Made by a program: the position numbers and the translations under genes
Source: Albidovulum aestuarii
Lineage (GTDB): Bacteria > Pseudomonadota > Alphaproteobacteria > Rhodobacterales > Rhodobacteraceae
Assembly: GCF_029961185.1 (NCBI RefSeq)
Contig: NZ_JASBQQ010000008.1
Location: 124,001-188,000, forward strand
Direction of reading: 5' to 3'
Length of the DNA: 64,000 nt
Notes under the pieces: model-generated
The model's database searches: none
The model's input: only the letters and a program-made list of their open reading frames with translations
Told to the model about the DNA's origin: nothing
Shown here: in pieces, positions 9,154-36,164 of the stretch
How the letters are laid out: every line of letters starts with the position of its first letter
Position numbering within the stretch: the stretch's first letter is position 1

Positions 9154-9154
9154 C

Positions 9155-11621: not shown

Positions 11622-11624
11622 GCC

Positions 11625-13155: not shown

Positions 13156-13159
13156 GGTG

Positions 13160-14338: not shown

Positions 14339-14948
14339 CCTCATCATCCGACGTCTGATCGAACACCGCATAGAAGGCCCCGATGGCACCAAGATAGGCT
14401 GGCACGTTCGGACAGATCACCAGATCGACCTCACTGCGCATCTCTTCAAGCGTATCGGGGGCCGCGACCGGTACCGCAAGGACGATCCGCGCAGGCCCAT
14501 GCCGCCGCACCGCTTTGACCGCAGCCCGCATCGTGGCGCCGGTGGCGATGCCATCGTCAACGATGATGACGGTGCGATCCTTCAGCGGTATCTGCGCACG
14601 CCCCCTCAGATAAAGCCGTCTGCGATCACGGATCAGGTCCAGCTGCGCTTCGGCCAGGCGTTCGATATCTGCATGAGACAGTCTTGTCTGGCGGGCGATG
14701 TCCTCATTCACCACGATCTCGGGATTGGCGCCGTTGACCACGGCCCCAGCCGCGAGTTCCGGTTGGGATGGCACGCCGATCTTGCGGACCATCACCAAAT
14801 CGAGCGGAGCAGCCAACGCCCGTGCAACCTCATAGGCGACGGGAACGCCTCCCCGGGGAAGGGCGAGAACCACGGGATTGGCCAGATGGAGGCCCGCAAA
14901 TTCCCTTGCCAGCCTCTCTCCTGCTTCCCTGCGATCGCGGTAGCGCAT
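14289..14948 (-). CDS. Phosphoribosyltransferase family protein
   Basis: A 219-residue type I phosphoribosyltransferase-like protein. The PRPP-binding motif is VIIVDDGIATGATMRAAV. The N-terminal part has VVLALPRGGVPVAYEVARAL and LDLVMVRKIGVPSQPELA, a layout common in stand-alone PRTases found in alphaproteobacterial stress clusters. The base substrate is not predictable. ATG at 14948 follows GGGGGTGG; an upstream ATG is less likely. It lies 49 bases downstream of the universal-stress gene on the same strand, probably one operon with lon. Confidence 0.88.
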   Translation of the reverse strand: MRYRDRREAGERLAREFAGLHLANPVVLALPRGGVPVAYEVARALAAPLDLVMVRKIGVPSQPELAAGAVVNGANPEIVVNEDIARQTRLSHADIERLAEAQLDLIRDRRRLYLRGRAQIPLKDRTVIIVDDGIATGATMRAAVKAVRRHGPARIVLAVPVAAPDTLEEMRSEVDLVICPNVPAYLGAIGAFYAVFDQTSDDEVIRLLDATAGPPASAR

Positions 14949-14997
14949 GACTCGACCACCCCCTATTGATCTCATAATCCCGACTTATGCCACATCT

Positions 14998-15741
14998 TCA
15001 CACCCCATCCGCCGCAGGACCGGTGAGAACCACTGGACAGCGCGCGGCGTTGATCAGGGCTCCGACGGGGGGCACCTCCTCCTGCCCTGTCGCGATGATC
15101 ACGGCGGCAGGGCTCATCCGCTCAAGCTCCCGCAGCAGGTTGGCGGTCCCGAGATAGGGGCGGTATTCGTGCAAGTTGCCTCGTTGGCGGGCGAGGATGG
15201 CCACCACCTCTCCTTCCCGCCGTGGCGTGGCGAAGACGATAAGACGTTTGCGGGTGAGTGCCGAAAGTTGCAGCGCGAACGCCAGTTGATCGTGCCCGGC
15301 ATCACGGTCGCCAAGGACCAGCACCAAGGCGTCGCCATCCTTGATCGACCGGCGGAACCCAATAACAATGATATCCCGGGCCTCCGCGGACCGCGCCAGA
15401 ACCGCCATCATCCGACCGCGGATGGCACTGAAGCTGGTCTCCAGCACCGCCTTCTGCGCCGCCTCGGTCAGCCGCTTTTGGAACAGCCGCGCATCGGCGC
15501 GGAAGGCGGCGTGCATCGTCTCGACCGTCACCTGTGTCACCGCCTGCCCGGAGAACGAAACCGCCCGCGCATGGGGATGCGCGGCGGCGGAAAGGATCGT
15601 TTCATCGCTTACCAGAATCCCGTGCAGACCGGCGCCCGCCGTCCGCGCCAGAAGAACGGCCAGATGCAGTGCCGCCTCGGCATCGGCATAACAGGTGGCA
15701 CTCAGGATCACGCGGGCATGAGGTGAAGCGGTCTCAGACAT
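14998..15741 (-). CDS. Universal-stress-like protein
   Basis: A 247-residue soluble protein. The N-terminal half resembles a USP-type alpha/beta domain (ARVILSATCYADAEAALHLAVLLARTAG), and the C-terminal half is less typical (LVLVLGDRDAGHDQLAFALQ, CPVVLTGP end). No clean ATP motif G-2x-G-9x-G is visible, so I call it USP-like only. The ATG at 15741 is used because AAAGGAGG lies at ideal distance inside the end of lon; the two genes overlap by 8 bases and should be translationally coupled. Confidence 0.6.
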   Translation of the reverse strand: MSETASPHARVILSATCYADAEAALHLAVLLARTAGAGLHGILVSDETILSAAAHPHARAVSFSGQAVTQVTVETMHAAFRADARLFQKRLTEAAQKAVLETSFSAIRGRMMAVLARSAEARDIIVIGFRRSIKDGDALVLVLGDRDAGHDQLAFALQLSALTRKRLIVFATPRREGEVVAILARQRGNLHEYRPYLGTANLLRELERMSPAAVIIATGQEEVPPVGALINAARCPVVLTGPAADGV

Positions 15742-18172
15742 CCGCCTTCGCCTCCTTTCCCAACCGGCCAAAGGCCTTACGCTTTTCGGCGAAGGCGCGA
15801 AGCCGGTCTTCGGTGCGACGGTTCACGCTGCCTTCGGGATAGACGCCGTCCTCTCCGCGCTCGCCCGCAACGAAGCCGGTCAGGGCCTCGATCCCGTCGG
15901 CGATGCTTCGCATCGGCAGGATGCGGAATTGTCCCGCCTCCACCGCCTCGATCACACGGAGGCGCAGCGACAGATGCTTGACATTGGCTGCGGGGATCAG
16001 CACGCCCTGCCGCCCGGTCAGGCCGCGCGCCGCGCAGATATCAAAGAACCCTTCGATCTTTTCGTTCACCCCGCCGATCGCCTGGATGTCGCCGAACTGG
16101 TTGACCGACCCGGTGATCGCCAGCGACTGGTCGATGGGTGTATCCGAAAGCGACGAGATTAACGCGAGCAGTTCGGCAGCAGAGGCGCTGTCGCCATCGA
16201 CGCCGCCGTAACTCTGTTCGAATACAAGACTGGCCCAAAGGGACATCGGCGCATCGGTGGCATAGGCCGCCGCGAGATAGCCCTGAAGGATCAGCATACC
16301 CTTGGAATGAATGGGGCCGCCAAGTTCGGTCTCGCGCTCAATATCGACAACCTTGCCGGTGCCGAGCCGGGTCCGCGCGGTCAGCCGGGACGGCCGGCCA
16401 AAGCGGGTGCCGCCGATCTCCAGCACCGAAAGGGCGTTGATCTGACCGACCCGAGCGCCATCTGTGTCGATCATCAGCGTTTCGCGCAGGATCGCATCCG
16501 CGCCAAGCTCACGCAGCCGCCCGGCGCGGAACTCACGCTCACTCACCGCTTTTTCGACCGCCCCGGCCCCGATCACGTCGCGCCCTTCGGCACCGGCCCA
16601 GAAATCCGCTTCGCGCAGGAGATCGGAAAGATGGTCAAGACCCAGCGACAACCGCCCGGCATCATCCGTCATGCGGTGGCTTTCGTGAAAGACCCATGCC
16701 ATCGCCGGGGGGTCGAGTGGCCTCAGACCACCATCCCGCGCGATCCCCGCGATCATTGCCGCATAGGCCGCAGGACCATCCGCACTCACCGCGATGTGGT
16801 CGTTGAAATCAGCCTCAAGCTTGAAAAGCTGGGTAAAGTCGGGATCGAGCGCGGCAAGCAGATAGTAGAAAATCCGTTCGCCCACCATGATCACCCGCAG
16901 GTCGAGTGGTACCGGATCAGGCGCCAGCGAGACGGTGGAAATAAGACTGAACCGTTCGGCGGGGGAATAGATCGCGATCTCGCGGGTTCTGAGGCAGCGT
17001 TTCAGCGCGTCCCAGGCCAGAGGTTCGGACAGGACCTGACGCGCGTCCAGAATGAGAAATCCACCATTGGCGCGGTGCAGGGCACCGGGTTTGATCATGG
17101 TGAAGTTGGTCACCAACGCGCCCATTTCCGAAGCAAATTCGATCCGTCCTATCAGATTGGCGAGCGTCGGCAGCTCTTCCTCGATCACGGGCGCGCCCGT
17201 CGCGCCATCCCCGTCCTGCGCGACGATGACATTGACCGTGTACCGTTGGAACCGCGGCTTGGCGTAGTGGCGGGTGGTTGCGACGGGGAACGGTCCTGCC
17301 TCGGCGCCATCCTCGCGGACCAGGAAGATCTCGGCATTCTCGATCAGGTCGCCGCGCACCGCGTCGAGGTAATCCTGCACCGCTCGGATGCCGGAAAATG
17401 CCTCGCGCAGCGTGCGGATGGCAACATCAACACCGCCGGTCGCCATCGCGTAGTTCAGGTCCTCAACCTCGCGGCGGTGCTGCTTTTCACGGCCCGGCAC
17501 CGCCTTCAGCGCTGCCGCCAGCTCCTGCTCGGTCTCATCGACCGCCGCGTCGATCGCGGCCTGTTCGTCGTCGCTCAGGCTCCGGCGCTTCTCGGGCGTC
17601 ATTACTTCGCCATCACGGGTGCCGACGACGGTGAACCCCATCGGTGTGCGCAGAATGGCAACGTCGCGGGCGCGGGCCTGCTCGAAGACCTTGCTCATCT
17701 CTGCTTCGTGCTCTTCGGAATAGCTTTGCTCGATACCGCGCCTGCGGGTCTGGTAGTCTTCGGAGTCGAACAAGGCCGGAATGTCGTTCGCCAGTTCGTC
17801 GATCAGATCCTCCATCGCCTTGCGGAATGCCGTTCCCATCCCCGCGGGAAGCTTGATCGCCACCGGCTTGTGAGGGGCGCCGAAGTTGTTGACATAGACC
17901 CAGTCGGCGGGGCGGGGCCGGTTCATTGCTGCTTCGGACAGGATCGCCCTCGTCATTCTGCGCCGCCCGCTGCCGGGATTTCCAAGTACAAACGCGTTGA
18001 AATCACCATGCCGCATCTCTGCCGCCATGCGGATCGCACCCAGCGCCCGGTCCTGTCCGATCCAGCCGCTTTCGCGCAGTTCGGCGCTGGTTGTGAATGT
18101 GAAATCCTCGGCCTTGACCTGTGCCGAGAGCTTCGCGGCGGGCAGAGGTTCCGGTCCGAGCGTCTTGGCCAT
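15734..18172 (-). CDS. Lon-family ATP-dependent protease (LonB/YcbZ-like)
   Basis: An 812-residue protein. The start at 18172 (MAKTLGPEPLPAAKLSAQV) has GAGGA upstream; the open frame extends further but into non-homologous sequence. The N-terminal AAA_32-type region includes a Walker A-like loop VLGNPGSGRRRMTRA in which the usual Lys is Arg. The C-terminal Lon protease domain carries the Ser/Lys dyad: Ser663 in DGDSASAAEL and Lys705 in GGVNEKIEG. It probably degrades damaged proteins. It is followed by a coupled USP-like gene, and a possible Fnr dyad lies 52 bases upstream. Confidence 0.92.
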   Translation of the reverse strand: MAKTLGPEPLPAAKLSAQVKAEDFTFTTSAELRESGWIGQDRALGAIRMAAEMRHGDFNAFVLGNPGSGRRRMTRAILSEAAMNRPRPADWVYVNNFGAPHKPVAIKLPAGMGTAFRKAMEDLIDELANDIPALFDSEDYQTRRRGIEQSYSEEHEAEMSKVFEQARARDVAILRTPMGFTVVGTRDGEVMTPEKRRSLSDDEQAAIDAAVDETEQELAAALKAVPGREKQHRREVEDLNYAMATGGVDVAIRTLREAFSGIRAVQDYLDAVRGDLIENAEIFLVREDGAEAGPFPVATTRHYAKPRFQRYTVNVIVAQDGDGATGAPVIEEELPTLANLIGRIEFASEMGALVTNFTMIKPGALHRANGGFLILDARQVLSEPLAWDALKRCLRTREIAIYSPAERFSLISTVSLAPDPVPLDLRVIMVGERIFYYLLAALDPDFTQLFKLEADFNDHIAVSADGPAAYAAMIAGIARDGGLRPLDPPAMAWVFHESHRMTDDAGRLSLGLDHLSDLLREADFWAGAEGRDVIGAGAVEKAVSEREFRAGRLRELGADAILRETLMIDTDGARVGQINALSVLEIGGTRFGRPSRLTARTRLGTGKVVDIERETELGGPIHSKGMLILQGYLAAAYATDAPMSLWASLVFEQSYGGVDGDSASAAELLALISSLSDTPIDQSLAITGSVNQFGDIQAIGGVNEKIEGFFDICAARGLTGRQGVLIPAANVKHLSLRLRVIEAVEAGQFRILPMRSIADGIEALTGFVAGERGEDGVYPEGSVNRRTEDRLRAFAEKRKAFGRLGKEAKADV

Positions 18173-18223
18173 GTCGTCCTCATCTTCTTCTGGCCAAGTA
18201 TCCCGCAACAAAGCCCATACGAA

Positions 18224-18237: not shown

Positions 18238-18287
18238 TCGGTCCTGCCCCGGCCCCGCTAAACTTCACCGAAGACCCGGAGGGAATG

Positions 18288-18671
18288 ATGACCAGAGCAG
18301 ATTTCGAACCGCTGGCCGCCGCGCTGGAAGGCCCGGCCGATCTCAGCCCCGAAACCGCCGCAGCCGTGCTTGCGCTGATCCGGCCGCTTGTTCCGGTGAA
18401 GGACAGGTGGCCCGCCGACCGGATGCCGGCGATCCAGTCCAGCGACGAAGTGATCCACCTTGTCGACCTCGCCTTGCCGGACTGGTCGATCAGCCTGAAG
18501 GGCCGCACCAATGACACTGACGGGCACTGGACCTGCACGCTGCGCCGGTCGGACACGCTGGACGATGACCTTCTGATCGGGATCGGCCGGGGACCTGCAC
18601 TGCCGCGCGCGATCCTCGCCGCGATGGTCCGTGTGGCGGCGTTGCGCACTACTCCGAAGACGGCCGACTGA
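18288..18671 (+). CDS. Hypothetical soluble protein
   Basis: A 127-residue protein with no recognised family. It is acidic in the N-terminal third, then RPLVPVKDRWPADRMPAIQ, a hydrophobic strand VIHLVDLALPDWSISLKG, and WTCTLRRSDTLDDDLLIGIG, consistent with a small alpha/beta fold. No signal peptide. The start at 18288 rather than the ATG three bases earlier gives the better distance to the GGAGG site. It is divergent from lon. Confidence 0.7.
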   Translation: MTRADFEPLAAALEGPADLSPETAAAVLALIRPLVPVKDRWPADRMPAIQSSDEVIHLVDLALPDWSISLKGRTNDTDGHWTCTLRRSDTLDDDLLIGIGRGPALPRAILAAMVRVAALRTTPKTAD

Positions 18672-18766
18672 TTGCCGTCAATGCAGAGGATCATTGCCAT
18701 GAACTACGCTCAGAACAGCAGGAACGCCCGGATGCCGGTTCGGCATCGCATTGGAAGGAGATCGCC

Positions 18767-19795
18767 ATGAAGACCTTCGCCCCATTCTTGCGCCAGTCCG
18801 CGACTGCCGCCGCCCTCTTGGCCGTATCCGCCGTTTCGGCGGGGGCCTTTACCGCATGTCAGGTCACCGATACCGGCGGTATCGACGACAACAGTTTCAA
18901 CCAGACGGCCTGGAAGGGCGTCGAGGATGCCCAAGCCGAACTGGGCGTTACGGGCCGGTTCCTCGAATCCCAGGCCGAAACGGACTATGAGGCGAATATC
19001 AACTCGCTGCTCGGCGGAGCCTGCGACGTGATCATTACCGTGGGGTTCCTGCTCGGCGACGCGACCAAGACCGCGGCCGAGCAGAACCCCGATCAGAAAT
19101 TTTCCATCGTCGATTTTTCCTACGATCCAGCCCTTCCGAACGTGCTGGGTCAGGTCTATGCGACGGATGAGGCTGCGTTCCTGGCAGGCTATCTTGCAGC
19201 CGGGATGACGCAAACCGGGGCCCTCGGCGTTTTCGGCGGGATCAACATCCCGCCAGTGACGATCTTCATGGACGGCTTTCATCACGGCGTCAGTTACTAC
19301 AACAGCCAGAAGGGCACCGCTGTCACCGTCCTCGGCTGGGACCCGATCACGCGCGAGGGTCTGTTCACCAACAACTTCGACTCGCTCGACGACGGTCGCG
19401 CCTTTGCCCAGAACCTTTACGACGAAGGTGCCGATATCGTGCTGCCTGTCGCTGGGCCTGTCGGGCTCGGCTCGGCCGCGCTGGCCGATGAACTAGGCAC
19501 CGACAAGCTAAAGATCATCGGCGTCGATGCGGACCTCTATTTCACTGACCCGGCGAAGAAGCATGTCTACCTGACCTCGATCACCAAACGCATGGATGCG
19601 ACGGTGCTTCAGGTGATCAAGGCGGTGACGGATGGCACGTTCGAGGGTGGCATCCTCACCGGCACGCTGGCCAATGGCGGCGTCGACCTCGCCCCGTTCC
19701 ATGACATGGAGGGCGACGTGCCCGATGCGCTGAAGGCCGAGCTGGCCGCGATCCGGCAGGGCATCATCGACGGCAGCATAGATGTCAGCCCCTGA
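18767..19795 (+). CDS. BMP-family ABC transporter substrate-binding protein
   Basis: A 342-residue exported solute-binding protein of the BMP/PnrA family. The signal peptide is residues 1-28; Cys31 in TACQVTD follows. The mature start QVTDTGGIDDNSFNQTAWKG is the typical BMP ligand-binding opening, and FLAGYLAAGMTQTGALGVFGG is another family block. Known relatives bind purine nucleosides or related compounds; the ligand here is unknown. AAGGAG ribosome site. It is the first gene of an eight-gene operon that runs into 2-oxoacid metabolism. Confidence 0.92.
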   Translation: MKTFAPFLRQSATAAALLAVSAVSAGAFTACQVTDTGGIDDNSFNQTAWKGVEDAQAELGVTGRFLESQAETDYEANINSLLGGACDVIITVGFLLGDATKTAAEQNPDQKFSIVDFSYDPALPNVLGQVYATDEAAFLAGYLAAGMTQTGALGVFGGINIPPVTIFMDGFHHGVSYYNSQKGTAVTVLGWDPITREGLFTNNFDSLDDGRAFAQNLYDEGADIVLPVAGPVGLGSAALADELGTDKLKIIGVDADLYFTDPAKKHVYLTSITKRMDATVLQVIKAVTDGTFEGGILTGTLANGGVDLAPFHDMEGDVPDALKAELAAIRQGIIDGSIDVSP

Positions 19796-19813
19796 CAGGT
19801 TAGGGGACAGGCG

Positions 19814-21325
19814 ATGGATATCGAGCTTCGCGGCATCACCAAACGGTTCGGCGAGGTTGTCGCCAACGAGGGTGTGAACCTCCGGGTCCGCGCAGGCGAG
19901 GTGCTGGGGCTTCTCGGTGAAAACGGCGCGGGCAAGTCCACTTTGATGAACGTGCTTTGCGGCCTTTACCGCCCGAACGAAGGTGAAATCCTGATCGATG
20001 GCAAACCGGTCGCGTTCGCCAGCCCGGCCGATGCGATCCGCGCCGGAATCGGCATGGTCCATCAGCATTTCATGCTGGTGCCGGTCTTTACCGTCGCCGA
20101 GAACGTCGTGCTGGGGGTTGAGCCGGTCGGGCGTCTTGACCGGCTTGACCGGGCGAAGGCCAGCGCCGAAGTCGCCGCAATCAGCCGGAAATACGGGCTG
20201 GAGGTCGATCCCGACACTCTGGTCGAAACCCTGCCGGTCGGCGTTCAGCAGCGGGTGGAGATCATCAAGGTCCTCTTCCGCGCCGCCGATGTCCTGATCC
20301 TGGATGAGCCGACAGCGGTCCTGACCCCGCAGGAGGTCGAGGATTTCTTTGCGGTGATCCGGGCCCTGCGGGATGCCGGAAAGGCTCTGGTCTTCATCAC
20401 CCACAAGCTGAACGAAATCCTCGACATCTCTGACCGGATCGCGGTGATCAGGGGCGGGCGCATCACCGGTGAAGGCAGGCCCGCCGACCTGACACCTAAA
20501 ACGCTTGCCGAGATGATGGTCGGTCGGCCCGTCAGCTTCGATGTAACCAAGACGCCATTCAGTCCGGGCCGCGCGCTTCTTGAGGTGCGCGACCTTACCG
20601 TGCTGCGCGACGACGATGCGGTGGCCGTCGATCACCTGAACCTGACCGTCCACAGTGGAGAGATTGTCGGTATTGCGGGAGTGCAAGGTAATGGCCAGTC
20701 GGCACTGATCGAGGCTTTGACCGGTCTGCGCCGCGTGGCCGGTGGCACGGTGACCTTTGACGGAGCCGACATCACCCATGCCTCGGTCCGTGCGCGCCAC
20801 CGCGCGGGCATCGCCCATATTCCCGAGGACCGGCAAAAAAGCGGCCTGATCCCGAAATTCACGGTGGCCGAGAACATGGTGCTCGACACCTACTATGACG
20901 ACCGGTTCAGCCGCGGCCCGTCGGTCATGTGGGACCATGTCGCCGAGAAGGCGGCCGAAGCCGTCATGGATTTCGATGTGCGCACGCCGTCGGTCTATTC
21001 CGCCGCCGGGCACCTTTCGGGCGGCAACCAGCAGAAGCTGGTCGTGGCGCGGGAGCTGTCGCGGGATACGCTTCTGGCCATCGCCGGGCAACCCACCCGG
21101 GGGCTCGACGTGGGGTCCATCGAATACATCCACAAACGCCTGATCGAGGCGCGCGACACCGGAGACGGCGTGCTGATGATCTCATCCGAGCTGGATGAGA
21201 TCCTGTCGCTCGCGGACCGGATCCTGGTGATGTTCAAGGGCCGGGTCGTGGCCGAATTCGACGCCGCCGCAGGGCCGGTCGACAAGGGCGCCATCGGTCT
21301 TGCCATGGCGGGGGCGGCGGCATGA
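19814..21325 (+). CDS. BMP-type ABC transporter ATP-binding protein (double ATPase)
   Basis: A 503-residue protein with two fused ATPase domains, the usual design for sugar/nucleoside importers. First half: Walker A GENGAGKST, Walker B VLILDEPTAVLT. Second half: a degenerate loop GVQGNGQSAL in place of Walker A, but an intact signature LSGGNQQKLV. One site is thus probably catalytic and the other regulatory, as is common in this group. It starts 18 bases after the binding protein and overlaps the first permease by ATGA. Confidence 0.95.
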   Translation: MDIELRGITKRFGEVVANEGVNLRVRAGEVLGLLGENGAGKSTLMNVLCGLYRPNEGEILIDGKPVAFASPADAIRAGIGMVHQHFMLVPVFTVAENVVLGVEPVGRLDRLDRAKASAEVAAISRKYGLEVDPDTLVETLPVGVQQRVEIIKVLFRAADVLILDEPTAVLTPQEVEDFFAVIRALRDAGKALVFITHKLNEILDISDRIAVIRGGRITGEGRPADLTPKTLAEMMVGRPVSFDVTKTPFSPGRALLEVRDLTVLRDDDAVAVDHLNLTVHSGEIVGIAGVQGNGQSALIEALTGLRRVAGGTVTFDGADITHASVRARHRAGIAHIPEDRQKSGLIPKFTVAENMVLDTYYDDRFSRGPSVMWDHVAEKAAEAVMDFDVRTPSVYSAAGHLSGGNQQKLVVARELSRDTLLAIAGQPTRGLDVGSIEYIHKRLIEARDTGDGVLMISSELDEILSLADRILVMFKGRVVAEFDAAAGPVDKGAIGLAMAGAAA

Positions 21326-22449
21326 GCGGGCGTGACATGAAGGCTCTTCTGGAACGCCCGGTCTGGGGCCGGAGCGAGGTCGAGGATCTGGTGATCGTGC
21401 CCCTTTTCGCCGTCATTGTCGCACTGGTCCTTGGCGCGCTGACGATGCTGGCGACGAATGTCGACATAGCCACGATCGGGCACTCCTACATCGCGTTGGC
21501 GCGCGGTTCGCTCGGGTCGCTGAACGCGCTTTCTGAAACCCTGACCGCCGCCATTCCGCTGGTCCTTGCCGGACTCGGCCTCGCGCTCGGCTTCAGGGCG
21601 GGGCTTTTCAACATCGGGGCCGAGGGGCAGCTGCTGATGGGCGGCATGGCGGCGGTGATCGCGGGTTTTGCCCTGTCGGGACTGCCTGCCGCGATTCACC
21701 TGCCGCTGGCGCTTCTGGTCGGCGCGCTGGCGGGCGCGCTATATGCCTCGATCGCTGGCTGGCTACGTGCGGCGACGGGCGCGCATGAGGTGATTTCGAC
21801 CATCATGCTGAACCTCATTTCCTATCGGCTTCTGGACTACATGCTGCGCATGCCTGCGATCCAGAAGGAGGGTCGCGCCGATCCGATTTCCAGATCCGTG
21901 CCCGAAGCTGCCGAACTGCCGCGCCTGCTGAGCTTCATCGACCCAAACCTGCGATTGCATGCCGGTGTCTTCCTGATGCTGGCGATGGTGGCGCTGGTCT
22001 GGTGGGTGCTCTTTCGTTCACGCATCGGGTTCGAGTTTCGTGCCAGCGGCGAAAGCGCCGATGCGGCGCGCTATGCGGGCATTCGCGCAGGCCTTGTCAT
22101 CGTGCTGGCCATGGGCACGGCGGGGGCGCTTGCGGGACTTGCCGGGGCCAATCAGGTGCTGGGCGTGCTGGGCCGCGCGACGCCCGGTTTCTCCGCCGGG
22201 ATCGGCTTTGACGCCATCGCGGTCGCCCTTCTCGGCCGGTCGCATCCGGTAGGTGTCCTCTTTGCCGGGCTTCTTTTTGGTGCGCTGGAGGCCGGGGGGC
22301 GGCAGATGCAGGTCGATGCCGGGGTCTCCATTGACCTCATCGGCATCATCCAGGCGCTGATCATCGTCTTCGTCGCCGCCCCGCTTCTGGTCCGCGCCAT
22401 CTTTCCCTGGGGGTTCCGCAGGCCGTCATCGGGAGGGCGAAGACCATGA
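21322..22449 (+). CDS. BMP-type ABC transporter permease 1
   Basis: A 375-residue inner-membrane permease with about 8-10 hydrophobic segments. Family motifs include ETLTAAIPLVLAGLGLALGF followed by RAGLFNIGAEGQLLMGG, GAHEVISTIMLNLISYRL, and GFDAIAVALLGRSHPVGVLF. It pairs with the next permease as a heterodimer. The start overlaps the ATPase stop (ATGA). Confidence 0.93.
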   Translation: MSGRDMKALLERPVWGRSEVEDLVIVPLFAVIVALVLGALTMLATNVDIATIGHSYIALARGSLGSLNALSETLTAAIPLVLAGLGLALGFRAGLFNIGAEGQLLMGGMAAVIAGFALSGLPAAIHLPLALLVGALAGALYASIAGWLRAATGAHEVISTIMLNLISYRLLDYMLRMPAIQKEGRADPISRSVPEAAELPRLLSFIDPNLRLHAGVFLMLAMVALVWWVLFRSRIGFEFRASGESADAARYAGIRAGLVIVLAMGTAGALAGLAGANQVLGVLGRATPGFSAGIGFDAIAVALLGRSHPVGVLFAGLLFGALEAGGRQMQVDAGVSIDLIGIIQALIIVFVAAPLLVRAIFPWGFRRPSSGGRRP

Positions 22450-23711
22450 CCACCGCCGCCGACCTTCCGCAAATCACAAAGCTTGATACCGGGCGAGAGC
22501 GTCAGGCCCGCATTGCCGGGGCCGTCCTTGTCGCACTTTCGGTGCTTGTCCTGTTCATCTTCGCACCCGGCGCAACCGGCAGCGCCACGTTCCGCCTCTC
22601 GCGCCCGACCGACGCGCTGCCGCTGCCCGACCTCGCCGTGCCATCGTCGCCGTTCCTCTACATCGCCGCCGCGTTTCTCGCCTTTCTCGGTGCCCGCCAG
22701 TTCATTCGGGGCGGCGGGCGATGGACTGCCCTGTCGCTTGGCCTGGGATTTGGAATTGCCGTCATGGCGCTTCTCGTCTGGGCGGCAACGGGCAAGGCGT
22801 TTTCGCTGACCGGGATGTTGCAGGCGACGATGGTGCGCGCGGTGCCCATTGCCCTGGGGGGGCTCGCGGGTGTGCTTTCCGAACGGGTTGCAGTTGTAAA
22901 CATCGCCATCGAGGGGATGCTGCTGGCCGGCGCCTTTACCGGCGCGCTGGTGGGCTCACTGATGGGCGGGGTAAGCGGGCTTGTCGCCGCCGTGGCGATC
23001 GGCGGGCTTTTCGGCTTCATCCTCGCTGCCCTCGTCGTGACCTACCGCATGGACCAGATCATCGCGGGCGTTGTGATCAACCTCTTTGTCCTCGGCCTGA
23101 CCTCATACGTTAGCAGCCAGGTTTTTCAGCAATACCGGAGCCTGAACGACGCCCCGGTCTTCCGCGCGGTGAAGATCCCGCTCCTGGGAGATATCCCGGT
23201 CATCGGGCCGATGCTGTTTCAACAGAATATCTTTGTCTATGGCGCGCTGATCATGGTGGCTGTGGCGACCTACTACCTGTTCTACACCCGTTACGGTCTG
23301 CGCGCCCGTGCGGTGGGGGAACATCCCCGCGCCGCCGATACGCTCGGCATCGACGTCCATCGGACACGCTATATCAATGTCACCGTTGCGGGCATGGTCG
23401 CGGGCTTTGGCGGGGCCTGGTTTACCTTGGGCGCAGTCGGCCGTTTCGATGAGGGCATGACCGGCGGGCGCGGCTTCATCGGGCTGGCCGCGATGATCTT
23501 CGGCCGCTGGCACCCGGTCGGCGCGCTCGCTGCCGCGCTTGTCTTCGGATTCGCGGATTCGCTCCAGCAGAAACTCGCGCTGCTGCAGACGCCGATCCCG
23601 TCCGAATTCCTCGCCATGGCGCCCTACATCGCCACCATCGTCGTCGTGGCCGGCCTGATCGGCCGCGCCCGCGCACCCGCCGCCGATGGCCAGCCCTATG
23701 TCAAGGAATAG
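22446..23711 (+). CDS. BMP-type ABC transporter permease 2
   Basis: A 421-residue permease, longer than usual because about 110 residues with two or three extra hydrophobic segments precede the conserved core. The core begins near AVPIALGGLAGVLSERVAVV and contains VNIAIEGMLLAGAF, RMDQIIAGVVINLFVLGL, AVGEHPRAADTLGIDVHR and GRGFIGLAAMIFGRWHPVGA. ATGA overlap with permease 1; only nine bases separate it from the synthetase gene. Confidence 0.92.
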   Translation: MTTAADLPQITKLDTGRERQARIAGAVLVALSVLVLFIFAPGATGSATFRLSRPTDALPLPDLAVPSSPFLYIAAAFLAFLGARQFIRGGGRWTALSLGLGFGIAVMALLVWAATGKAFSLTGMLQATMVRAVPIALGGLAGVLSERVAVVNIAIEGMLLAGAFTGALVGSLMGGVSGLVAAVAIGGLFGFILAALVVTYRMDQIIAGVVINLFVLGLTSYVSSQVFQQYRSLNDAPVFRAVKIPLLGDIPVIGPMLFQQNIFVYGALIMVAVATYYLFYTRYGLRARAVGEHPRAADTLGIDVHRTRYINVTVAGMVAGFGGAWFTLGAVGRFDEGMTGGRGFIGLAAMIFGRWHPVGALAAALVFGFADSLQQKLALLQTPIPSEFLAMAPYIATIVVVAGLIGRARAPAADGQPYVKE

Positions 23712-23720
23712 AGGCAGAGA

Positions 23721-25466
23721 ATGACAAAGGACCGCATCACCAAGCCCGAGAAAGTCAGACGCGGCGCCAACATGCCGGACTACGAGGCGACGCGCGCGGA
23801 TTTTACCTGGGATACGGCGCGCTGCCTGATCGATGGCTTGCCGGATGGCAAATTGAACATCGCCCATGAGGCCATCGACCGGCACGTTTCTGCCGGGAAC
23901 GGCGACCAGACGGCGATCCGCTGGCTTGGCAAGGACGCTGTGGTGCGGGATCTCACCTATCTCGACCTTCAACGGCTAACCAACCGCTTTGCCAACGTCC
24001 TCCGTGCGCAGAGCCTTGGCAAAGGCGACGGAGTCTATGCCCTGATGGGCCGCACGCCCGATCTTTACATCGCCGCCCTTGGCACGCTGAAGGCAGGATG
24101 CGTCTTCTGCCCGCTTTTCTCTGCCTTCGGGCCCGAACCGATCCATGCTCGGATGGAGATCGGCGGCGCTAACGCCCTGATCACCACCGCGCGGCTATAT
24201 AAACGCAAGGTCGCTGGCTTGCGCGACCGACTACCCGAATTGCGGACCGTCCTTCTGACCGATGGCGAGACGACGGATTGCGTGGCCCTTCCGCCCCTGA
24301 TGCAGGCAGCCCCGGAGGATTTCGCGACCGAAGCGATGGACCCGGAGGACATGGCACTTTTGCATTTCACCTCTGGCACGACCGGCAAACCCAAGGGCGT
24401 CGTCCATGTGCACGAAGCCGTCGTCGCCCATCACATCACCGGCCGGTTCGCGCTCGACCTGAATCCGGGGGATATCTACTGGTGCACCGCCGATCCAGGC
24501 TGGGTCACGGGCACCTCCTACGGGATCATTGCGCCCCTGACCAACCGCGTGACCATGATCGTGGATGAGGCGGAATTCGACGCGGGCCGCTGGTACGACA
24601 TTCTTGAGCGCGAAGCCGTGACGGTCTGGTACACCGCGCCGACCGCGATCCGCATGCTGATGAAAGCCGGGGCGGAGGCAGTCGAAGGGCGCGACCTCTC
24701 GGCCTTGCGCTTCATGGCAAGCGTCGGCGAACCCCTGAACCCCGAAGCGGTGGTCTGGTCCAACGAGGTCTTCGGCCGACCCTTCCATGACAATTGGTGG
24801 CAGACGGAAACCGGCGGCATCATGATCGCCAACTATGCGTCGATGGATGTGAAACCCGGCTCAATGGGCAAGCCCCTGCCGGGAATCGAGGCCGGGATCG
24901 TCGAGTTGACCGAGGCGGGCGCGACCGAGGTCACGAAACCCGGCGCCATCGGCGAGTTGGCCTTGCGCCCCGGCTGGCCGTCGATGATGCGCGGCTATCT
25001 GCATGAAGAGGCGCGCTATAAGAAGTGTTTCCGGGACGGCTGGTACCTGTCGGGCGACCTCGCGATGCGCGACGCCGACGGCTATTTCTGGTTTGTCGGC
25101 CGCGCCGACGACCTGATCAAGAGCGCGGGCCACCTGATCGGCCCGTTTGAAGTCGAAAGCGCGCTGATCGAACATGAGGCTGTGGCCGAGGCCGGAGTGA
25201 TCGGCGTACCGGACGAGACGGCGGGCGAACTGGTCAAGGCCTATGTCGCCCTGAAACCCGGCTTCGAACCGACTGACGAGCTGAAGCTCGACCTGCTCGG
25301 TCATGCCCGCAAGCGGCTTGGGCCTGCCGTGGCCCCGAAAGACATCGTCTTCCGCAAGAACCTGCCCAAGACCCGCAGCGGCAAGATCATGCGCCGGCTT
25401 CTGAAGGCGCGCGAACTCGGGCTGCCTGAAGGCGACATCTCGACCCTTGAAAGCGATGAACAATGA
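23721..25466 (+). CDS. AMP-forming acyl/acetyl-CoA synthetase
   Basis: A 581-residue ANL-superfamily ligase, the length of AcsA-type acetyl-CoA synthetases rather than the 650-residue Acs. Motifs: P-loop [11 protein letters not shown], the [13 protein letters not shown] block, [28 protein letters not shown] and the C-terminal [11 protein letters not shown] with the reactive lysine. It would activate a small carboxylic acid with ATP and CoA. Acetate is the default guess, but the transporter and dehydrogenase neighbours make another short acid possible. GAGG site; overlaps the E1 gene by ATGA. Confidence 0.9.
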
Positions 25467-27466
25467 CCGTTAGCCAAGAAAAACCCCGGCTCGACCATGC
25501 CCATGTCCGCGAGCTTCTGAAGGCGATGATCCGCATCCGGCGCTTCGAGGACAAATGCGCCGAACTGTATACCCAGCAGAAGATCCGCGGTTTCCTGCAC
25601 CTTTATGACGGAGAGGAGGCCATCGCCGCCGGCATCATCCCGCTGCTGGAGGCCAAGGACAGGCTGGTCGCCACCTACCGCGAACATGGCCACGCGCTGG
25701 TGCGGGGCGTGCCGATGGGTGCGGTTCTGGCCGAGATGTACGGCAAGGCCGAAGGCTGCGCGGGTGGGCGCGGCGGGTCGATGCATCTCTTCAGCGCCGA
25801 ACGCAACTTCTACGGCGGCAACGCCATCGTCGGCGGCGGCCTGCCGCTGGCCACGGGCCTTGCGCTTGCCGACCGGATGCAGGGCAGCGATGCCGTCACC
25901 GCCTGCTTTTTCGGTGAAGGCGCGGTGGCCGAGGGCGAGTTTCATGAGGCGATGAACCTCGCCGCACTCTGGGGCCTGCCGGTCCTGTTCGTCTGTGAAA
26001 ACAACGGCTATGCGATGGGCACGGCTTTGGCGATTTCCGAGGCTGAGACCGATATCAGCGTCAAGGCGCGCAGCTACGGCATCGACAGTGTGGTGGTTGA
26101 TGGGATGGATGTCGTCGCCGTCGAGGCCGCCGCGCGCAAGGCACTGAAGGCCATCGCAGCCACGGGCAAGCCGCAGTTTCTTGAATGCCGGACCTATCGC
26201 TTCCGGGCGCATTCCATGTTCGACGCCCAGCTTTACCGCCCGAAGGAAGAGGTCGAGGAATGGCGGGCCAAGGGGCCCATCGTCCGCTTCCAGACCTGGC
26301 TTCTGGAAAACGGCCTTCTGCACGAGGAAGAGATAACCGCCCTGACGGGCGAGGTGGATGCCGAGATCGCGGAGGCCGTCGCCTTTGCCGAGGCAGGCCA
26401 TGACGAACCCGTCCCGGACCTGACCCGCTTTGTAATGTCGCCAGATCGGCCCGACCCGCCGGTCGCGGAACCGCCCGGCAAGACGGCTACGACAACCTAC
26501 CGCGAGGCTGTCAAGGCCGCGATCACCGACGCGATGGAGCGCGATGACCGCGTGTTCCTGATGGGCGAGGATGTCGGGCGTTACGGAGGATGCTATGCCG
26601 TGTCGAAGGGGCTTCTCGACCGCTTCGGCCCTGACCGCATCCGCGACACGCCACTTTCCGAATCCGGCTTTACCGGGGCCGGCATAGGGGCCGCGATCGC
26701 GGGCATGCGGCCGATTGTCGAGGTGATGACGGTCAACTTCTCGCTTCTGGCGCTCGACCAGATCCTGAACACCGCCGCCACCTTCCGGCACATGTCGAAC
26801 AACCAGTTCGGCGTGCCCGTGGTGATCCGCATGGCGACCGGTGCGGGCCGGCAACTGGCCGCGCAACATTCCCATTCGCTCGAAGGCTGGTACGCGCATA
26901 TCCCCGGCCTGCGTGTTCTTGCCCCCGCGACGCTGGAGGACGCGCGGGGAATGCTCTGGACCGCGCTTCAGGACCCCGATCCGGTGCTGATCTTCGAAAA
27001 CGTCATGCTTTATAACCGCGAGGGGAAGCTTGCCGAAAATGCCGGGCCCGTCGATATCGACCGCGCCGCGATCCGGCGCGACGGGACCGACGTCACGCTC
27101 ATCACCTATGGCGGATCGCTCTGGAAGACTCTCGATGCCGCCGAGGTGCTGGCGGCGGAAGGTATCTCGGCCGATGTGATCGATCTGCGCACGCTCCGCC
27201 CTCTCGACCTGCCGACAATCCTGACATCGGTCGGCAAGACCCGCCGTGCGGTCATGGTCGACGAAGGCTGGAAAACCGGCAGTCTTGCCGCCGAGATCGG
27301 CATGCGGCTGGCCGAAGAGGCGTTCTGGGAGCTTGACGCGCCGCTTGCCCGGGTCTGCAGCGCCGAGGTGCCGATCCCTTACGCCGCGCATCTGGAACAG
27401 GCGGCGATCCCGCAGACCGCGGGCATCGTTGAAGCCGTCAGGGCCGTGATGGGGGCAAAACCATGA
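25463..27466 (+). CDS. Fused E1 alpha-beta of a 2-oxoacid dehydrogenase complex
   Basis: A 667-residue thiamine-diphosphate enzyme joining E1 alpha (about 1-325) and E1 beta (about 345-667), which are normally separate proteins. Alpha part: [21 protein letters not shown] and the ThDP motif [11 protein letters not shown] ... [10 protein letters not shown]. Beta part: [53 protein letters not shown]. The pattern is closest to pyruvate/acetoin-type E1. It decarboxylates a 2-oxo acid and passes the acyl group to lipoyl-E2, the next gene. The ATGA overlaps on both sides show tight coupling. Confidence 0.93.
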
Positions 27467-28638
27467 GCGCGTTTCTCATGCCCTCGCTCGGCGCGGATAT
27501 GGAGGCCGGAACCTTGGTCGAACAACTCATCTCTCCCGGAACGGAGGTTCATCGCGGCGACATCATCGCCGTAGTCGAGACCCAGAAAGGCGCCATCGAA
27601 ATCGAAGTGTTCGAAGATGGCAGGCTTGAGGACTGGCTGGTGAATCTGGGCGAAAAGGTGCCGGTCGGAACTCCGCTGGCGATGATCCGGGCGCAAGGCG
27701 AACCCGAAACGCCGCAGCCGCAGGACCCGGTGCCGAAGCCGCCGCGCCCTGAGGCGCCCCCGCGTCCGGAACCCCTTCCGCAACCACCCGGCCCGGAACT
27801 GCCACCGCCGGACCTGCCGCAACCCGAACAGCCCTTTCCGGAACTGCGCGCCCGCGCCTCGCCCGCCGCGAGGCGACTGGCGGCGCAAAGCGGGATCGAC
27901 CTTGGCCGTATCTCCGCCAGAGCAGACGGCACGATCCGTTACGCCGACGTGCAGGCCGGACCCCGCCAATCCGGAATGCCCGACATGCGCCGCGCCATTG
28001 CCGCCGCTATGGCGCGGTCGAAGCGCGAGATTCCGCACTATTACCTGTTACATCAAAGCGACCTGAGCGCGGTCGAAGAGTTCGTCGCCCGGACCAATGC
28101 CGACCGTGCGCCCGAAGAGAGGCTTTCGCCTGCCGCGATATATCTGAAAGCCGTCGCCGGGGCGTTGCGGAAGTATCCCGAATTCAGCGGCAGCTACGTC
28201 GACGGCGCTTTCATACCTTCCGATGCCGCCCATATCGGCCTTGCCATCAATCTGCGCGGCAAGGGACTGGTTGCCCCAGCTTTGTTCGACGTCGGCACCA
28301 AGGACCTCGATACGCTCATGTCCGAGATGCGCGACCTCATTGCGCGCACCCGCGCCGGGCGGTTCAAGGCGCGCGAATTGTCGGACGCGACGATCACGTT
28401 GACGAGCCTCGGAGACCGCGGGGTCGATGGTCTCTACGGCGTCATCTACCCGCCCCAGACCGCCATCGTCGGGATAGGAACGCCCCGCCCCGCGCCTTGG
28501 GTTGCGGACGGTGCAGTTGTCGCCCGACCCGTCACGACGCTCACCCTCGCCGCCGACCACCGCGTCAGCGACGGTCATCGCGGCGCGCTTTTCCTGCGCG
28601 CCATCGACACCCATCTGCAAACCCCCGAGGCGCTATGA
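27463..28638 (+). CDS. Dihydrolipoamide acyltransferase (E2)
   Basis: A 391-residue E2. The lipoyl domain (residues 1-80) has the lipoylated lysine in [10 protein letters not shown] (Lys42). A Pro-rich linker (about 85-125) follows, then a peripheral subunit-binding domain [18 protein letters not shown] and the catalytic domain from about 170, ending with the active-site motif DHRVSDG. It transfers the acyl group made by E1 to CoA, or possibly to the ACP encoded next. No E3 (dihydrolipoamide dehydrogenase) gene is in the operon, so E3 must come from elsewhere. Confidence 0.93.
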
Positions 28639-28880
28639 CCCAGGAAGAGATCGAAACGGCCCTGATTGCCGAACTGAGCCGCATCGCCCCAGACATTGAT
28701 TTGGAGGATGTGGATCGCGGCCACGACCTGCGCGAAGAATTCGACATAGACTCCATCGACTTCCTGAACCTTGTCACCGCCCTTGGCAAACGCTTCGGCC
28801 TCGACATGCCCGAGGCCGACTATCCGCAGATGGACACATTCGACCATCTGCACGCCTATCTTGTCGCCAAGTCCGGCTGA
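28635..28880 (+). CDS. Acyl carrier protein
   Basis: An 81-residue acidic protein with the ACP fold. The phosphopantetheine site is Ser40 in EFDIDSIDFLNLV. It is not an obvious housekeeping AcpP: the sequence is DSI instead of the usual DSL, and the setting is an E1/E2 operon. ATG at 28635 overlaps the E2 stop (ATGA), so it is made together with E2. It may carry the acyl product of the complex or of the synthetase; that role is inference. Confidence 0.88.
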   Translation: MTQEEIETALIAELSRIAPDIDLEDVDRGHDLREEFDIDSIDFLNLVTALGKRFGLDMPEADYPQMDTFDHLHAYLVAKSG

Positions 28881-29628: not shown

Positions 29629-32025
29629 CTAGTGCGGTGGCAGCGTCCCTTCCGCCTCGGCAACATTGCGCTTCACCTTCAGAAAACTGTCCGGCGTGAC
29701 CGAAATGCTGTCGATCCCGAAGCCCACCAGCCTTTGCGCAAAGGCTGGGTCGTTGCTGGGTGCCTGACCGCAGAACCCGACCTTGGACCCCGCCTTGTGC
29801 GCCTCGCGGATCACCGTCCGGATCATCCACATCACCGCCGGATCGCTTTCCCGGAAGAGCGGCGCGAGCACCTCGGAATCCCGGTCCACACCAAGAGTCA
29901 GTTGCGTCAGGTCGTTCGAACCGATGGAAAACCCGTCGAACCGTTCGGCGAAGTCGGCAGCCAGCACGACATTCGACGGGATTTCGCACATCACATAGAC
30001 CTGAAGCCCCTTTCGCCCGCGTTTCAGCCCGTTTTCCGCCATCACCTTCAGGACGCGATCCGCCTCATCCGGCGTGCGGCAGAAGGGGATCATGACGATC
30101 ACATTGTCAAACCCCATCTCCTCGCGCAGCCGCCGGATCGCGCGGCATTCAAGCGCAAAACCGGCGCGGTAGCTGTCGGAATAATAGCGCGATGCGCCAC
30201 GGAACCCGATCATCGGGTTTTCCTCCTCGGGCTCGAACTGACGGCCGCCCAGCAGATCGGCATATTCGTTGGTCTTGAAATCCGACATCCGCACGATGAC
30301 AGGTTTCGGGTGGCAGACAGCGGCAATCCGCGACAGGCCACGCGCGAGGTGATCGACAAAGTATTCGGTTCGGTCCGTATAGCCCCGCGTCAGATCGGCT
30401 ATCGCCTTGCGCGCCTCAGGGTCGGTCAGGCGGTCATACTCGACCAGCGCCATCGGATGCACCTTGACCGCCGAATTCACCACGAACTCCATCCGCGCCA
30501 ACCCCACCCCGTCCATCGGCAGCCGCCACCAGCGAAACGCGGCGGCGGGATTGGCGAGGTTCAGCATCACGCCGGTGCGGGTCTTCTCGATCCCGGCCAG
30601 ATCCTGTTCCTCCACCGTGATCTCGGCATGTCCGGCATAGACGAACCCGTCCTCGCCTTCGGCACATGAGACGGTGATCTCCTGCTCATCATGCAGAACA
30701 TGCGTGGCCTCGCCGCAGCCGACAATGGCAGGCAGGCCAAGTTCGCGGCTGACGATGGCGGCATGCGATGTGCGCCCGCCGTGATCGGTCACGATGGCCG
30801 CCGCGCGTTTCATGATCGGCACCCAATCGGGATCGGTCGTCGAGGTGACAAGGACCGAGCCATCGACAAAACGATCGATCTCGGCCGCCGTCTCGATCAG
30901 GCAGACCCGGCCATTGACGGCCGCATCCCCGACACTGAGCCCGGAAAGCAGTTTCGGCCCCGCTTTCGCGACCGCGTAGGATTTCAGTACGCCAGCTTCC
31001 AGTCGTGACTGCACAGTCTCGGGCCGCGCCTGCACGATGAAAAGGTCACCGGTTTCACCGTCCCGTGCCCATTCCATGTCCATCGGCTGGCCGTAGTGAT
31101 CCTCGATCACCTGCGCCTGACGCGCCAGTGTCAGAATCTCATCGTCGCTGAGGACGAATGCCGCCCGCTCGGCTTTCGAGGTCGGCACGTTCCGGGTCTC
31201 GCGCCCGGACGCACCGGCATAGATCATCTTCTTTTCCTTCGCCCCCAGACGCTTTTCGAGGATCGGGACGAGACCGCGTTTGCCAAGGAATGGTTTGAAG
31301 ACCTGGTATTCGTCCGGGTTGACGGCACCTTGCACGACATTCTCGCCCAGCCCCCAGGCGGCATTGATCAGCACGACCTTGTCAAAGCCCGTCTCGGTAT
31401 CGATGGAGAACATCACCCCCGATCCACCCAGATCGGCCCGCACCATCTGCTGCACGCCGACGGACAGGGCCACCTTGTCGTGGTCGAAGCGCTTGATCTT
31501 CCGGTATGTGATCGCCCGGTCGGTGAATAGCGATGCGTAGCAACGACGGCAGGCGGCCAGCAGCGCCTCTTCGCCCCGGACGTTCAGAAAGGTCTCCTGC
31601 TGACCCGCGAAACTCGCGTCCGGCAGGTCCTCGGCCGTGGCGCTGGAGCGGACGGCGACGGCGGGTTCGGAACCGCCGGTTCGGTCCGCCAGGTCACGGT
31701 AGGCTTTACGGATCGCGGTCTCCGTCTCCGCAGGCCAATCCCCCTCGGCAATCATCCGGCGGATTGCCTCACCGGCCTCGTGCAGCGTCAACTTGTCCGC
31801 ATCCAGCCGGGCGATGCGGTCGGCAATCATCGGGCCAAGATCATTCGCCGCAAGGAAATCGCGGTACGCACGCGCCGTCGTTGCAAATCCCGGTGGCACG
31901 CGAACGCCCTTCGCCCCCAGTTCGCGCACCATTTCACCGAGTGAGGCGTTCTTGCCGCCGACAACGGCAATATCGGCGCGCGTCACGCTGTCCAGATCAC
32001 ACACAAGGCGGTCATCCCGTTTCAT
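29629..32025 (-). CDS. ppsA: Phosphoenolpyruvate synthase
   Basis: A 798-residue enzyme that makes PEP from pyruvate, ATP and water. N-terminal ATP-grasp domain: GGKNASLGEMVREL, AVRSSATAEDLPDASFAGQQ. Phosphohistidine domain: TDHGGRTSHAAIVSRELGLP, with the catalytic His. C-terminal PEP/pyruvate barrel: RMSDFKTNEYADLLGG, EEENPMIGFRGASRYY, GSNDLTQLTLGVDRDS and GFCGQAPSND. Full length. GGAGG ribosome site before the ATG; a weak Fnr-like dyad lies 57 bases upstream. It is needed for growth on C2/C3 compounds and fits with the neighbouring acetate/2-oxoacid operon. Confidence 0.96.
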   Translation of the reverse strand: MKRDDRLVCDLDSVTRADIAVVGGKNASLGEMVRELGAKGVRVPPGFATTARAYRDFLAANDLGPMIADRIARLDADKLTLHEAGEAIRRMIAEGDWPAETETAIRKAYRDLADRTGGSEPAVAVRSSATAEDLPDASFAGQQETFLNVRGEEALLAACRRCYASLFTDRAITYRKIKRFDHDKVALSVGVQQMVRADLGGSGVMFSIDTETGFDKVVLINAAWGLGENVVQGAVNPDEYQVFKPFLGKRGLVPILEKRLGAKEKKMIYAGASGRETRNVPTSKAERAAFVLSDDEILTLARQAQVIEDHYGQPMDMEWARDGETGDLFIVQARPETVQSRLEAGVLKSYAVAKAGPKLLSGLSVGDAAVNGRVCLIETAAEIDRFVDGSVLVTSTTDPDWVPIMKRAAAIVTDHGGRTSHAAIVSRELGLPAIVGCGEATHVLHDEQEITVSCAEGEDGFVYAGHAEITVEEQDLAGIEKTRTGVMLNLANPAAAFRWWRLPMDGVGLARMEFVVNSAVKVHPMALVEYDRLTDPEARKAIADLTRGYTDRTEYFVDHLARGLSRIAAVCHPKPVIVRMSDFKTNEYADLLGGRQFEPEEENPMIGFRGASRYYSDSYRAGFALECRAIRRLREEMGFDNVIVMIPFCRTPDEADRVLKVMAENGLKRGRKGLQVYVMCEIPSNVVLAADFAERFDGFSIGSNDLTQLTLGVDRDSEVLAPLFRESDPAVMWMIRTVIREAHKAGSKVGFCGQAPSNDPAFAQRLVGFGIDSISVTPDSFLKVKRNVAEAEGTLPPH

Positions 32026-35298: not shown

Positions 35299-35362
35299 CT
35301 TCATTCTCCTTCGATTCAGCGGGCCGTCCGCCTGAGGTTAGGGCACCCGTGATCCGCGGGCA

Positions 35363-35970: not shown

Positions 35971-36144
35971 TCAATCAAGCGAAGCTACGAGGCGCAGTAC
36001 CTCGGCCTCATCATCGCCCGGTTCGGGGAAGTCGCTAACGAGCTTCGGCTTGCTTTCGGTCAGTGTACCGGTCTTTTCGACGATAAGCGTATCGACCTTC
36101 TCGAACCGCTCAAGCGCCTCGGCGTTCTTGATCAGCACCCCAGC
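35971..36144 (-). pseudogene. Fragment of a copper P1B-type ATPase
   Basis: About 57 codons match the phosphorylation region of CopA-type pumps: GVLIKNAEALERFEKVDTL then VEKTGTLTESKPKL and a helix ending RLVASLD before a stop. The upstream 400-plus and downstream 300-plus residues of a normal pump are missing. The invariant phosphorylated Asp is Glu here (codon at 36076-36078), so even this core could not work. Clearly a remnant, unrelated to the intact P2-type ATPase gene nearby. Confidence 0.8.
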
Positions 36145-36164
36145 CGATGACGGCGGGGACTGGT

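Follow-up and report, generated by a model that had tools for sequence, protein, structure and literature searches.

Why should an importer of a usually nucleoside-related type be coupled, almost base to base, with genes for an acyl-CoA synthetase, a 2-oxo acid dehydrogenase and a carrier protein? This question is raised by eight consecutive forward-strand genes (18767-28880) in a 64,000-nucleotide stretch of Albidovulum aestuarii DNA (NCBI RefSeq GCF_029961185.1, contig NZ_JASBQQ010000008.1, positions 124,001 to 188,000), hereafter the window. The open reading frames (ORFs) of the window place these genes in one run with junctions of 18, -4, -4, 9, -4, -4, and -4 bases; five of the seven are ATGA overlaps and the remaining gaps are 9 and 18 bases, exactly as an earlier note made from the sequence alone had claimed. 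The overlapping genes and the 9-base junction agree with the proposal in that note of one coupled operon in this genome. We consider it rather likely that two modules of a low-oxygen type island, each conserved on its own, are joined in this operon: a probable nucleoside importer and an auxiliary acetyl-generating cassette.

The first four genes encode a BMP/PnrA-type substrate-binding protein (18767-19795; Pfam Bmp, 4.4e-50), a double ATPase of an ATP-binding cassette (ABC) transporter (19814-21325; ABC_tran in two stretches), and two ABC permeases (21322-22449 and 22446-23711; BPD_transp_2 in both). These are followed by an AMP-forming acetate--CoA ligase of the AcsA type (ACS; 23721-25466; AMP-binding; NCBIfam PRK04319, 907 bits against a cut-off of 729), whose nearest solved chain is the acetyl-CoA synthetase 9g79 (3.6e-165), and by a fused E1 alpha-beta of the pyruvate dehydrogenase (PDH) type (25463-27466; E1_dh, Transket_pyr, and Transketolase_C in a single chain). 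An E2 composed of a lipoyl domain, a linker, an E3-binding domain, and an acyltransferase core (27463-28638; Biotin_lipoyl, E3_binding, and 2-oxoacid_dh) and a dedicated acyl carrier protein (ACP; 28635-28880; PP-binding) complete the run. The Pfam and NCBIfam matches thus bear out the domain assignments of the earlier note. The alpha half of E1 matches TIGR03182 (PDH E1 alpha; 428 bits, cut-off 394) and the beta half matches the PRK09212 subfamily (411 bits, cut-off 321), with a second beta model, PRK11892, falling below its cut-off (391 versus 454). A branched-chain or 2-oxoglutarate type E1 was considered and dropped, as the scores and the nearest solved chains favour the pyruvate type.

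A scan for promoters and terminators listed no terminator-like site at the junction of permease 2 and the ligase, and neither kind of site stood out over the region (1 promoter-like site against 1.3 in shuffles, and 10 terminator-like sites against 7.5). A further forward-strand ORF of 128 aa (18285-18671), absent from the earlier note, ends 95 bases 5' of the importer and has no Pfam or NCBIfam match. Its homologues adjoin and precede the importer in two importer loci (L194 and L195), so the unit may comprise nine genes with this small conserved island protein as a possible first member; other island loci also hold homologues.

The last four genes are conserved as a cassette (ACS, E1, E2, and ACP). 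A scan with the fused E1 returned 474 related stretches, the best 80 of which were kept as loci, and matches below 40% coverage were excluded from the locus gene counts. The cassette is complete and ordered in 74 of the 80 loci; five others end at a contig edge, and in the sixth exception (L063) E2 falls below the coverage filter. An ACP gene follows E2 in 76 loci, and the remaining four are truncated at E1. Plasmid records show this gene order too, with a split E1 in Streptomyces fungicidicus, Sinorhizobium fredii, Burkholderia savannae, Cupriavidus, and Methylocystis, and with a fused E1 in Leisingera, Sulfitobacter, and Tropicibacter. Searches by tblastn also located the four genes in Streptomyces sp. 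BHT-5-2, Embleya, Photobacterium (where E1 gives one match), and Azospirillum. The cassette therefore spans Alpha-, Beta-, and Gammaproteobacteria and Actinobacteria, and with its order kept across phyla these four genes are not grouped by chance. In the genome surveys, E1 was found in 38 of 295 genomes at the family level (1e-180) and in 39 of 385 at the class level (1e-150), many of the latter being distant E1s at 41-46% identity; the ACP, a short query that says little more, was found in 14 of 398 genomes at the phylum level (1e-8). A literature search, with most subscription papers outside its reach, returned no title, abstract start, or passage describing an acsA-E1-E2-ACP set, in line with the earlier note, to which no described pathway with its set was known, and the cassette is apparently undescribed and unnamed.

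If the whole operon were one dedicated pathway, as that note had suggested, an imported compound would be converted to a 2-oxo acid and then to an acyl-CoA or acyl-ACP by the downstream enzymes. The overlapping genes and the 9-base junction speak for such a pathway, as does the joint presence of importer and E1 in 9 of the 17 family-level genomes that hold the importer at 1e-100 (17 with the importer and 38 with E1 among 295; p = 4e-5). Without the A. aestuarii genome itself, E1 occurs in 8 of 16 importer genomes against 2.0 expected (p = 1.8e-4), and the co-occurrence of importer and cassette is above chance as an association. The two modules are also near each other, differently arranged, in five loci (L060, L064, L073, L191, and L194). 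However, synteny of importer and cassette is mostly lost in relatives, the outcome that the note itself had named as refuting its proposal: just 3 of the 80 cassette loci have the importer in their flanks, which were fetched to at most 10 kb, and of 16 importers two (L191 and L194) have the cassette in the 20 kb fetched around them. The 9-base junction of the window recurs in none of the three. In L064 the importer is on the strand of the cassette at a distance of about 1 kb with an opposite ORF between them, and in L060 and L073 it is on the opposite strand; in L191 the cassette comes first and the importer follows on the same strand 359 bases away. Elsewhere other genes replace the importer, as the cassette begins 8-21 bases behind a short-chain dehydrogenase gene in L059, L068, and L071 and 21-22 bases behind a flavodoxin-domain gene in L098 and L101, and its upstream partners therefore vary. 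Moreover, none of the eight genes would convert a nucleoside to a 2-oxo acid, and E1 and the ligase resemble pyruvate and acetate enzymes, so that an exotic imported precursor is not needed. With synteny lost and the upstream partners variable, a dedicated import pathway was rejected as the main explanation of the operon, and we regard it as improbable. Beyond these loci, the importer was found at the class level (1e-85) in one of 289 genomes, that of A. aestuarii itself, and at 1e-60 in four plasmid records; the one listed genome of the same genus has neither importer nor E1.

What the two modules share can be sought upstream of them. An FNR-type box was taken to be TTGAY-N4-RTCAA, one mismatch being allowed, no more than 300 bases from ACS; dinucleotide shuffles served as the null, and 73 of the 80 loci had enough upstream sequence. 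Such a box precedes ACS in 65 of these 73 related loci against 2.8 expected, and an internal stretch of E1 gave one in 75. When the box nearest to -70 is taken, it stands 40-120 bases ahead of the estimated ACS start in 53 of the 65. Before the importer, 10 of 17 relatives carry a box against 0.46 expected. Exact boxes were also found in the S. fredii, B. savannae, and Cupriavidus records. In the window, an FNR/FixK-type box with one mismatch, CTGATTGCCGTCAA, occupies 18668-18681 and starts 99 bases before the importer start, and the stretch before ACS (23400-23721) contains no box even at up to two mismatches. Three of the eight boxless cassettes (L059, L068, and L071) are those that follow another gene by 8-21 bases; loss of the box is thus sometimes accompanied by capture behind a different promoter, and this fits the arrangement in the window.

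The neighbourhoods were compared by clustering the neighbours over the 80 loci and the window; the first 45 clusters were inspected and part of them identified. Both the loci and the window have genes for phosphoenolpyruvate (PEP) synthase (12 of 80 loci), a LonB-like protease (8 of 80), and a P-type cation ATPase (7 of 80) near the cassette, and PhaC is found in 7 of 80 loci. Further neighbours occur in 3-11 loci each: by eye, a response regulator, a PAS kinase, and an S2P-CBS protease; and mostly by Pfam, Hsp20, a GroEL-type chaperonin, PfkB, a phosphoribosyltransferase, a class II amidotransferase, DUF2267, a Crp/Fnr regulator, and a ribosome-hibernation-type protein. Every recurrent neighbour occurs in a minority of the cassette loci. 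The assignment of cluster 11 to the universal stress proteins (USPs) was dropped for lack of a Pfam match. In the annotated records, USPs or Crp/Fnr regulators adjoin the cassette; the Leisingera records have a Crp/Fnr regulator and Hsp20 near it, and a Streptomyces record has pyruvate phosphate dikinase (PPDK), USPs, Hsp20, a nitroreductase, and a cation ATPase. Stress genes lie near the cassette in the opened annotated alphaproteobacterial, betaproteobacterial, and Streptomyces records.

We scored the island by 17 chosen clusters, themselves drawn from the cassette loci, and matches in importer loci and in the window needed at least 60% coverage. Among the 60 cassette loci of at least 15 kb, one or more of the 17 clusters are present in 33 and two or more in 22. 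At least two were found in 7 of 16 importer loci and at least one in 8, whereas two were found in none of 15 control regions and one in a single control. The controls leave out one region that holds the cassette (L231), three of them come from importer-free genomes, and some share a contig with the importer; the sole control with one match (L228) is among these importer-free-genome or importer-contig controls. Positions 1-40000 of the window match eight of the 17 clusters, namely PEP synthase, the LonB-like protease, the cation ATPase, clusters 13 and 30, DUF2267, Hsp20, and the phosphoribosyltransferase, and lack clusters 6, 8, 9, 11, 14, 15 (Crp/Fnr), 20, 21 (PfkB), and 29. Each of the two modules, taken by itself, is associated with a stress island of the low-oxygen type.

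The cargo of the importer was approached through its relatives. The solved relatives of the binding protein include Lbp, BmpA, BmpD, and TmpC, and nucleoside binders are described among solved BMP relatives in the accessible portion of one report (PMC7093131). In a genome whose binding protein is 64% identical (G090), a purine-nucleoside phosphorylase gene follows the importer (301 bits, cut-off 218), and in Rhizobium sp. CB3060 (65% identical) the importer stands by phosphopentomutase and nucleoside phosphorylase genes; the genome of A. aestuarii has three phosphorylase-superfamily genes elsewhere. Two Phe-bearing motifs are kept in 18 of 18 binding proteins and two other motifs differ from those of the solved relatives; both sets would presumably line the binding pocket. 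Our best guess for the cargo is nucleosides, and the nucleoside link that the earlier note gave for BMP importers is probable here, given distant relatives that adjoin nucleoside-cleaving enzymes. The BMP relatives L187-L202 are split into an island type with DDNSFNQ and DADL and the group L199-L202 with DDA or DDK and DADQ or DGDW, a division that may mean a ligand shift.

The catalytic and carrier motifs of the cassette proteins are intact. Of 90 sources, 87 have the WWQTETG motif of AcsA, the Trp of which limits the pocket to acetate, and two of the three without it are fragments. The AQHS motif of E1 is present in 88 of 90, and 85 of 90 show its HSMFD loop; the five exceptions are split-E1 records in which the extraction covered 324-496 aa only; the C17 PDH of the same genome reads HSMSDP at this loop. 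The lipoyl Lys occurs in 87 of 87 aligned E2s and DHR..DG in 83 of 90 (five of the seven misses are fragments), and the Ser of the ACP motif DS[ILMV] occurs in 86 of 86, the other four of the 90 sources ending at E1. With the two E3 proteins of the genome as queries, each of which finds the other, neither the 96 cassette loci searched nor the window gave an E3 match at 1e-10; both E3 genes are located elsewhere in the genome, above cut-off, and a stretch by the C17 PDH genes holds none.

These enzymes could amount to an ordinary spare PDH with an acetyl-CoA synthetase, in which E2 would pass its acetyl group to CoA and the ACP would have a side role only, such as lipoate supply or fatty-acid synthesis. 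We take this as a serious contender, at somewhat under an even chance, as E1, E2, and the ligase match standard families with standard motifs and PhaC, which polymerises acetyl-CoA products, recurs near the cassette. It accounts less readily for the constant place of the ACP behind E2, in the actinobacterial records as well, for the invariant Ser, for the missing E3, and for the fact that no lipoate gene is among the identified neighbour clusters. Alternatively, the cassette may be a primary-metabolic generator of acetyl-ACP in oxygen limitation, in which E1 and E2 would hand the acetyl of pyruvate to ACP instead of CoA and AcsA would feed the same pool; we consider this possible, albeit doubtful. 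Acetyl transfer to ACP is nevertheless plausible by analogy, and a real possibility because an E1-E2-carrier set that borrows its E3 is known. Such sets occur in natural-product biosynthesis, and a unit in the style of QncN/L/M or SclQ1-4 would load a two-carbon group on ACP for a dedicated assembly line. The E1, E2, and ACP set is the same, and E3 is likewise absent in the pepteridine case, as far as the available text of the reports goes (PMC6335953, PMC5384830). However, no synthetase, condensing, or assembly-line gene is among the identified neighbour clusters (genes confined to single loci being only partly identified), the context is one of stress genes, and a Cupriavidus plasmid in which two more AMP-binding genes immediately precede the cassette (L121, 7360-11938), possibly an assembly-line variant, is an isolated case. 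An assembly-line role is very unlikely on this evidence.

We therefore return to two island modules joined in one operon. In the mechanism that we propose, the fused E1 would decarboxylate pyruvate, the lipoyl arm of E2 would carry the acetyl group, and a housekeeping E3 would re-oxidise the arm. AcsA would make the same acetyl unit from acetate, with the dedicated ACP as partner or acceptor. A regulator of the FNR/Dnr type would turn both modules on as oxygen falls, and in this genome the cassette, which lacks a separate box, would depend on the promoter of the importer for its transcription. Oxygen control, pyruvate and acetate as substrates, and nucleosides as cargo are what we infer from the boxes, the enzyme families, and the importer relatives.

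Several observations weigh against joining two low-oxygen modules in this manner. Fewer than two island clusters are present in 38 of the 60 long cassette loci and in 9 of the 16 importer loci. The counts come from related loci, which are not independent trials, and no box precedes 8 of the 73 cassettes or 7 of the 17 importers. The single mismatch in the importer's box also matters, as the 64 kb of the window hold 7 such one-mismatch matches against 3.3 expected and 6 of 100 shuffles reach 7. No box was found in the Methylocystis, Photobacterium, and Azospirillum records. Among three actinobacterial records, searched with the OsdR motif taken from the accessible part of its source (PMC5069765), one has an exact OsdR-type site, one has one-mismatch sites only, and one has none upstream. 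The exact site, in S. fungicidicus (L118), is the only one in 30 kb and sits between a USP gene and acsA, and it may serve either of them. The nucleoside contexts of G090 and Rhizobium sp. CB3060 belong to importers outside the island, and two motifs set the importers L199-L202 apart from the island type. Lastly, the available portions of the published lxa table and of the OsdR passages do not name the cassette (PMC4981469, PMC5069765).

Around the operon, the island of the window, which the earlier note did not mention, extends at least from the Na+-translocating NADH:quinone reductase (Na+-NQR) genes through the cation ATPase. The Na+-NQR genes and ApbE (6016-12578, forward) match the NqrA domains, NQR2_RnfD_RnfE, FMN_bind, Rnf-Nqr twice, NqrF (433 bits, cut-off 295), and ApbE, and an exact FNR-type box (6293-6306) lies near their start. 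They are followed by a sodium/proton exchanger (13097-14338, forward; Na_H_Exchanger), a phosphoribosyltransferase (14289-14975, reverse; Pribosyltran, matching cluster 19), and the LonB-like ATP-dependent protease (15734-18184, reverse), the ORF of which is open to 18700 and the relatives of which have about 820 aa. Downstream of the operon are PEP synthase (29629-32025, reverse; NCBIfam PRK06464, 1120 bits, cut-off 598) and the P-type cation ATPase (32123-34795, reverse). A second exact FNR-type box in the window is at 35363, 58 bases upstream of a reverse-strand ORF of 149 aa (34855-35304) that is phasin-like by eye, has no Pfam match, and would fit an island role in poly-hydroxybutyrate.

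Several other genes were noted near the cassette or in the window. A 68-aa reverse-strand frame (35971-36177), by eye similar to a piece of a heavy-metal P-type ATPase, with a DKTGTLT-like motif and no Pfam match, is perhaps a gene remnant. Three consecutive forward ORFs of 255-269 aa (2487-5076) have no Pfam match and a one-mismatch FNR-type box at 2405, and a reverse ORF with cytochrome c7/CXXCH matches (5130-6299) overlaps the start of the Na+-NQR region on the opposite strand. In Sulfitobacter sp. SK012 (L124, 1-4867 and 8013-10597) the genes near the cassette include an F1F0 ATP synthase operon, an acetate/propionate kinase, and an enoyl-CoA hydratase/phosphate acetyltransferase, and in L103, L108, L109, and L078 a nickel hydrogenase subunit and a hydrogenase maturation protease are near it (clusters 23 and 24).

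Even as an ordinary auxiliary PDH, the cassette would represent an overlooked carbon step in anoxic survival of the lxa/DosR type, with poly-hydroxybutyrate, acetate for ATP, and lipid as candidate users of its acetyl units. If it charges ACP, PDH chemistry of natural-product type would also serve dormancy metabolism, and a widespread PDH branch would bypass CoA, keeping an acetyl reserve or feeding lipid or polymer synthesis in dormancy.

The closest known setting is the lxa locus of Burkholderia, which is required for anoxic persistence according to the available part of the report (PMC6127331). The lxa locus and the OsdR/DosR regulons share with the island PpsA or PPDK, USPs, Hsp20, phosphofructokinase, polyhydroxyalkanoate polymerase, a cation ATPase, and CRP regulators in the published portions at hand (PMC4981469; PMC5069765), and ppsA of Bradyrhizobium is named among FixK2-regulated genes in the accessible text of another study (PMC6201568). 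In contrast, the lxa table, as far as it is available (PMC4981469), lists neither the acsA-E1-E2-ACP cassette nor a BMP importer. The PDH E1p/E2p and AcsA resemble the cassette in domain content and in the lipoyl Lys, DHR..DG, AQHS, and WWQTETG, whereas the cassette differs in its fused E1, the lack of a nearby E3 gene, the partner ACP, HSMFD for HSMSD, and AcsA within the operon. QncN/L/M, SclQ1-4, and Plu2796 of the pepteridine cluster likewise combine E1, E2, and a carrier protein. In the available portions of these reports, E3 is borrowed from the cell in the pepteridine case, where the authors propose priming of the carrier arm instead of CoA, and SclQ1-4 are proposed, by homology to QncN-L-M, to make a glycolic unit on ACP (PMC5384830, PMC6335953). 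These systems sit in natural-product clusters, whereas the cassette, with no recognised assembly line and with AcsA, lies among stress genes. Finally, the window importer resembles the PnrA/BmpD nucleoside importers in its Bmp binding protein, double ATPase, two permeases, and Phe-bearing motifs, but it differs at two further motifs, with AGPVGLG in place of the AGGTG of two of the three solved relatives shown and DADL in place of the DxDQ of all three, and in the FNR-type box that precedes 10 of its 17 relatives.

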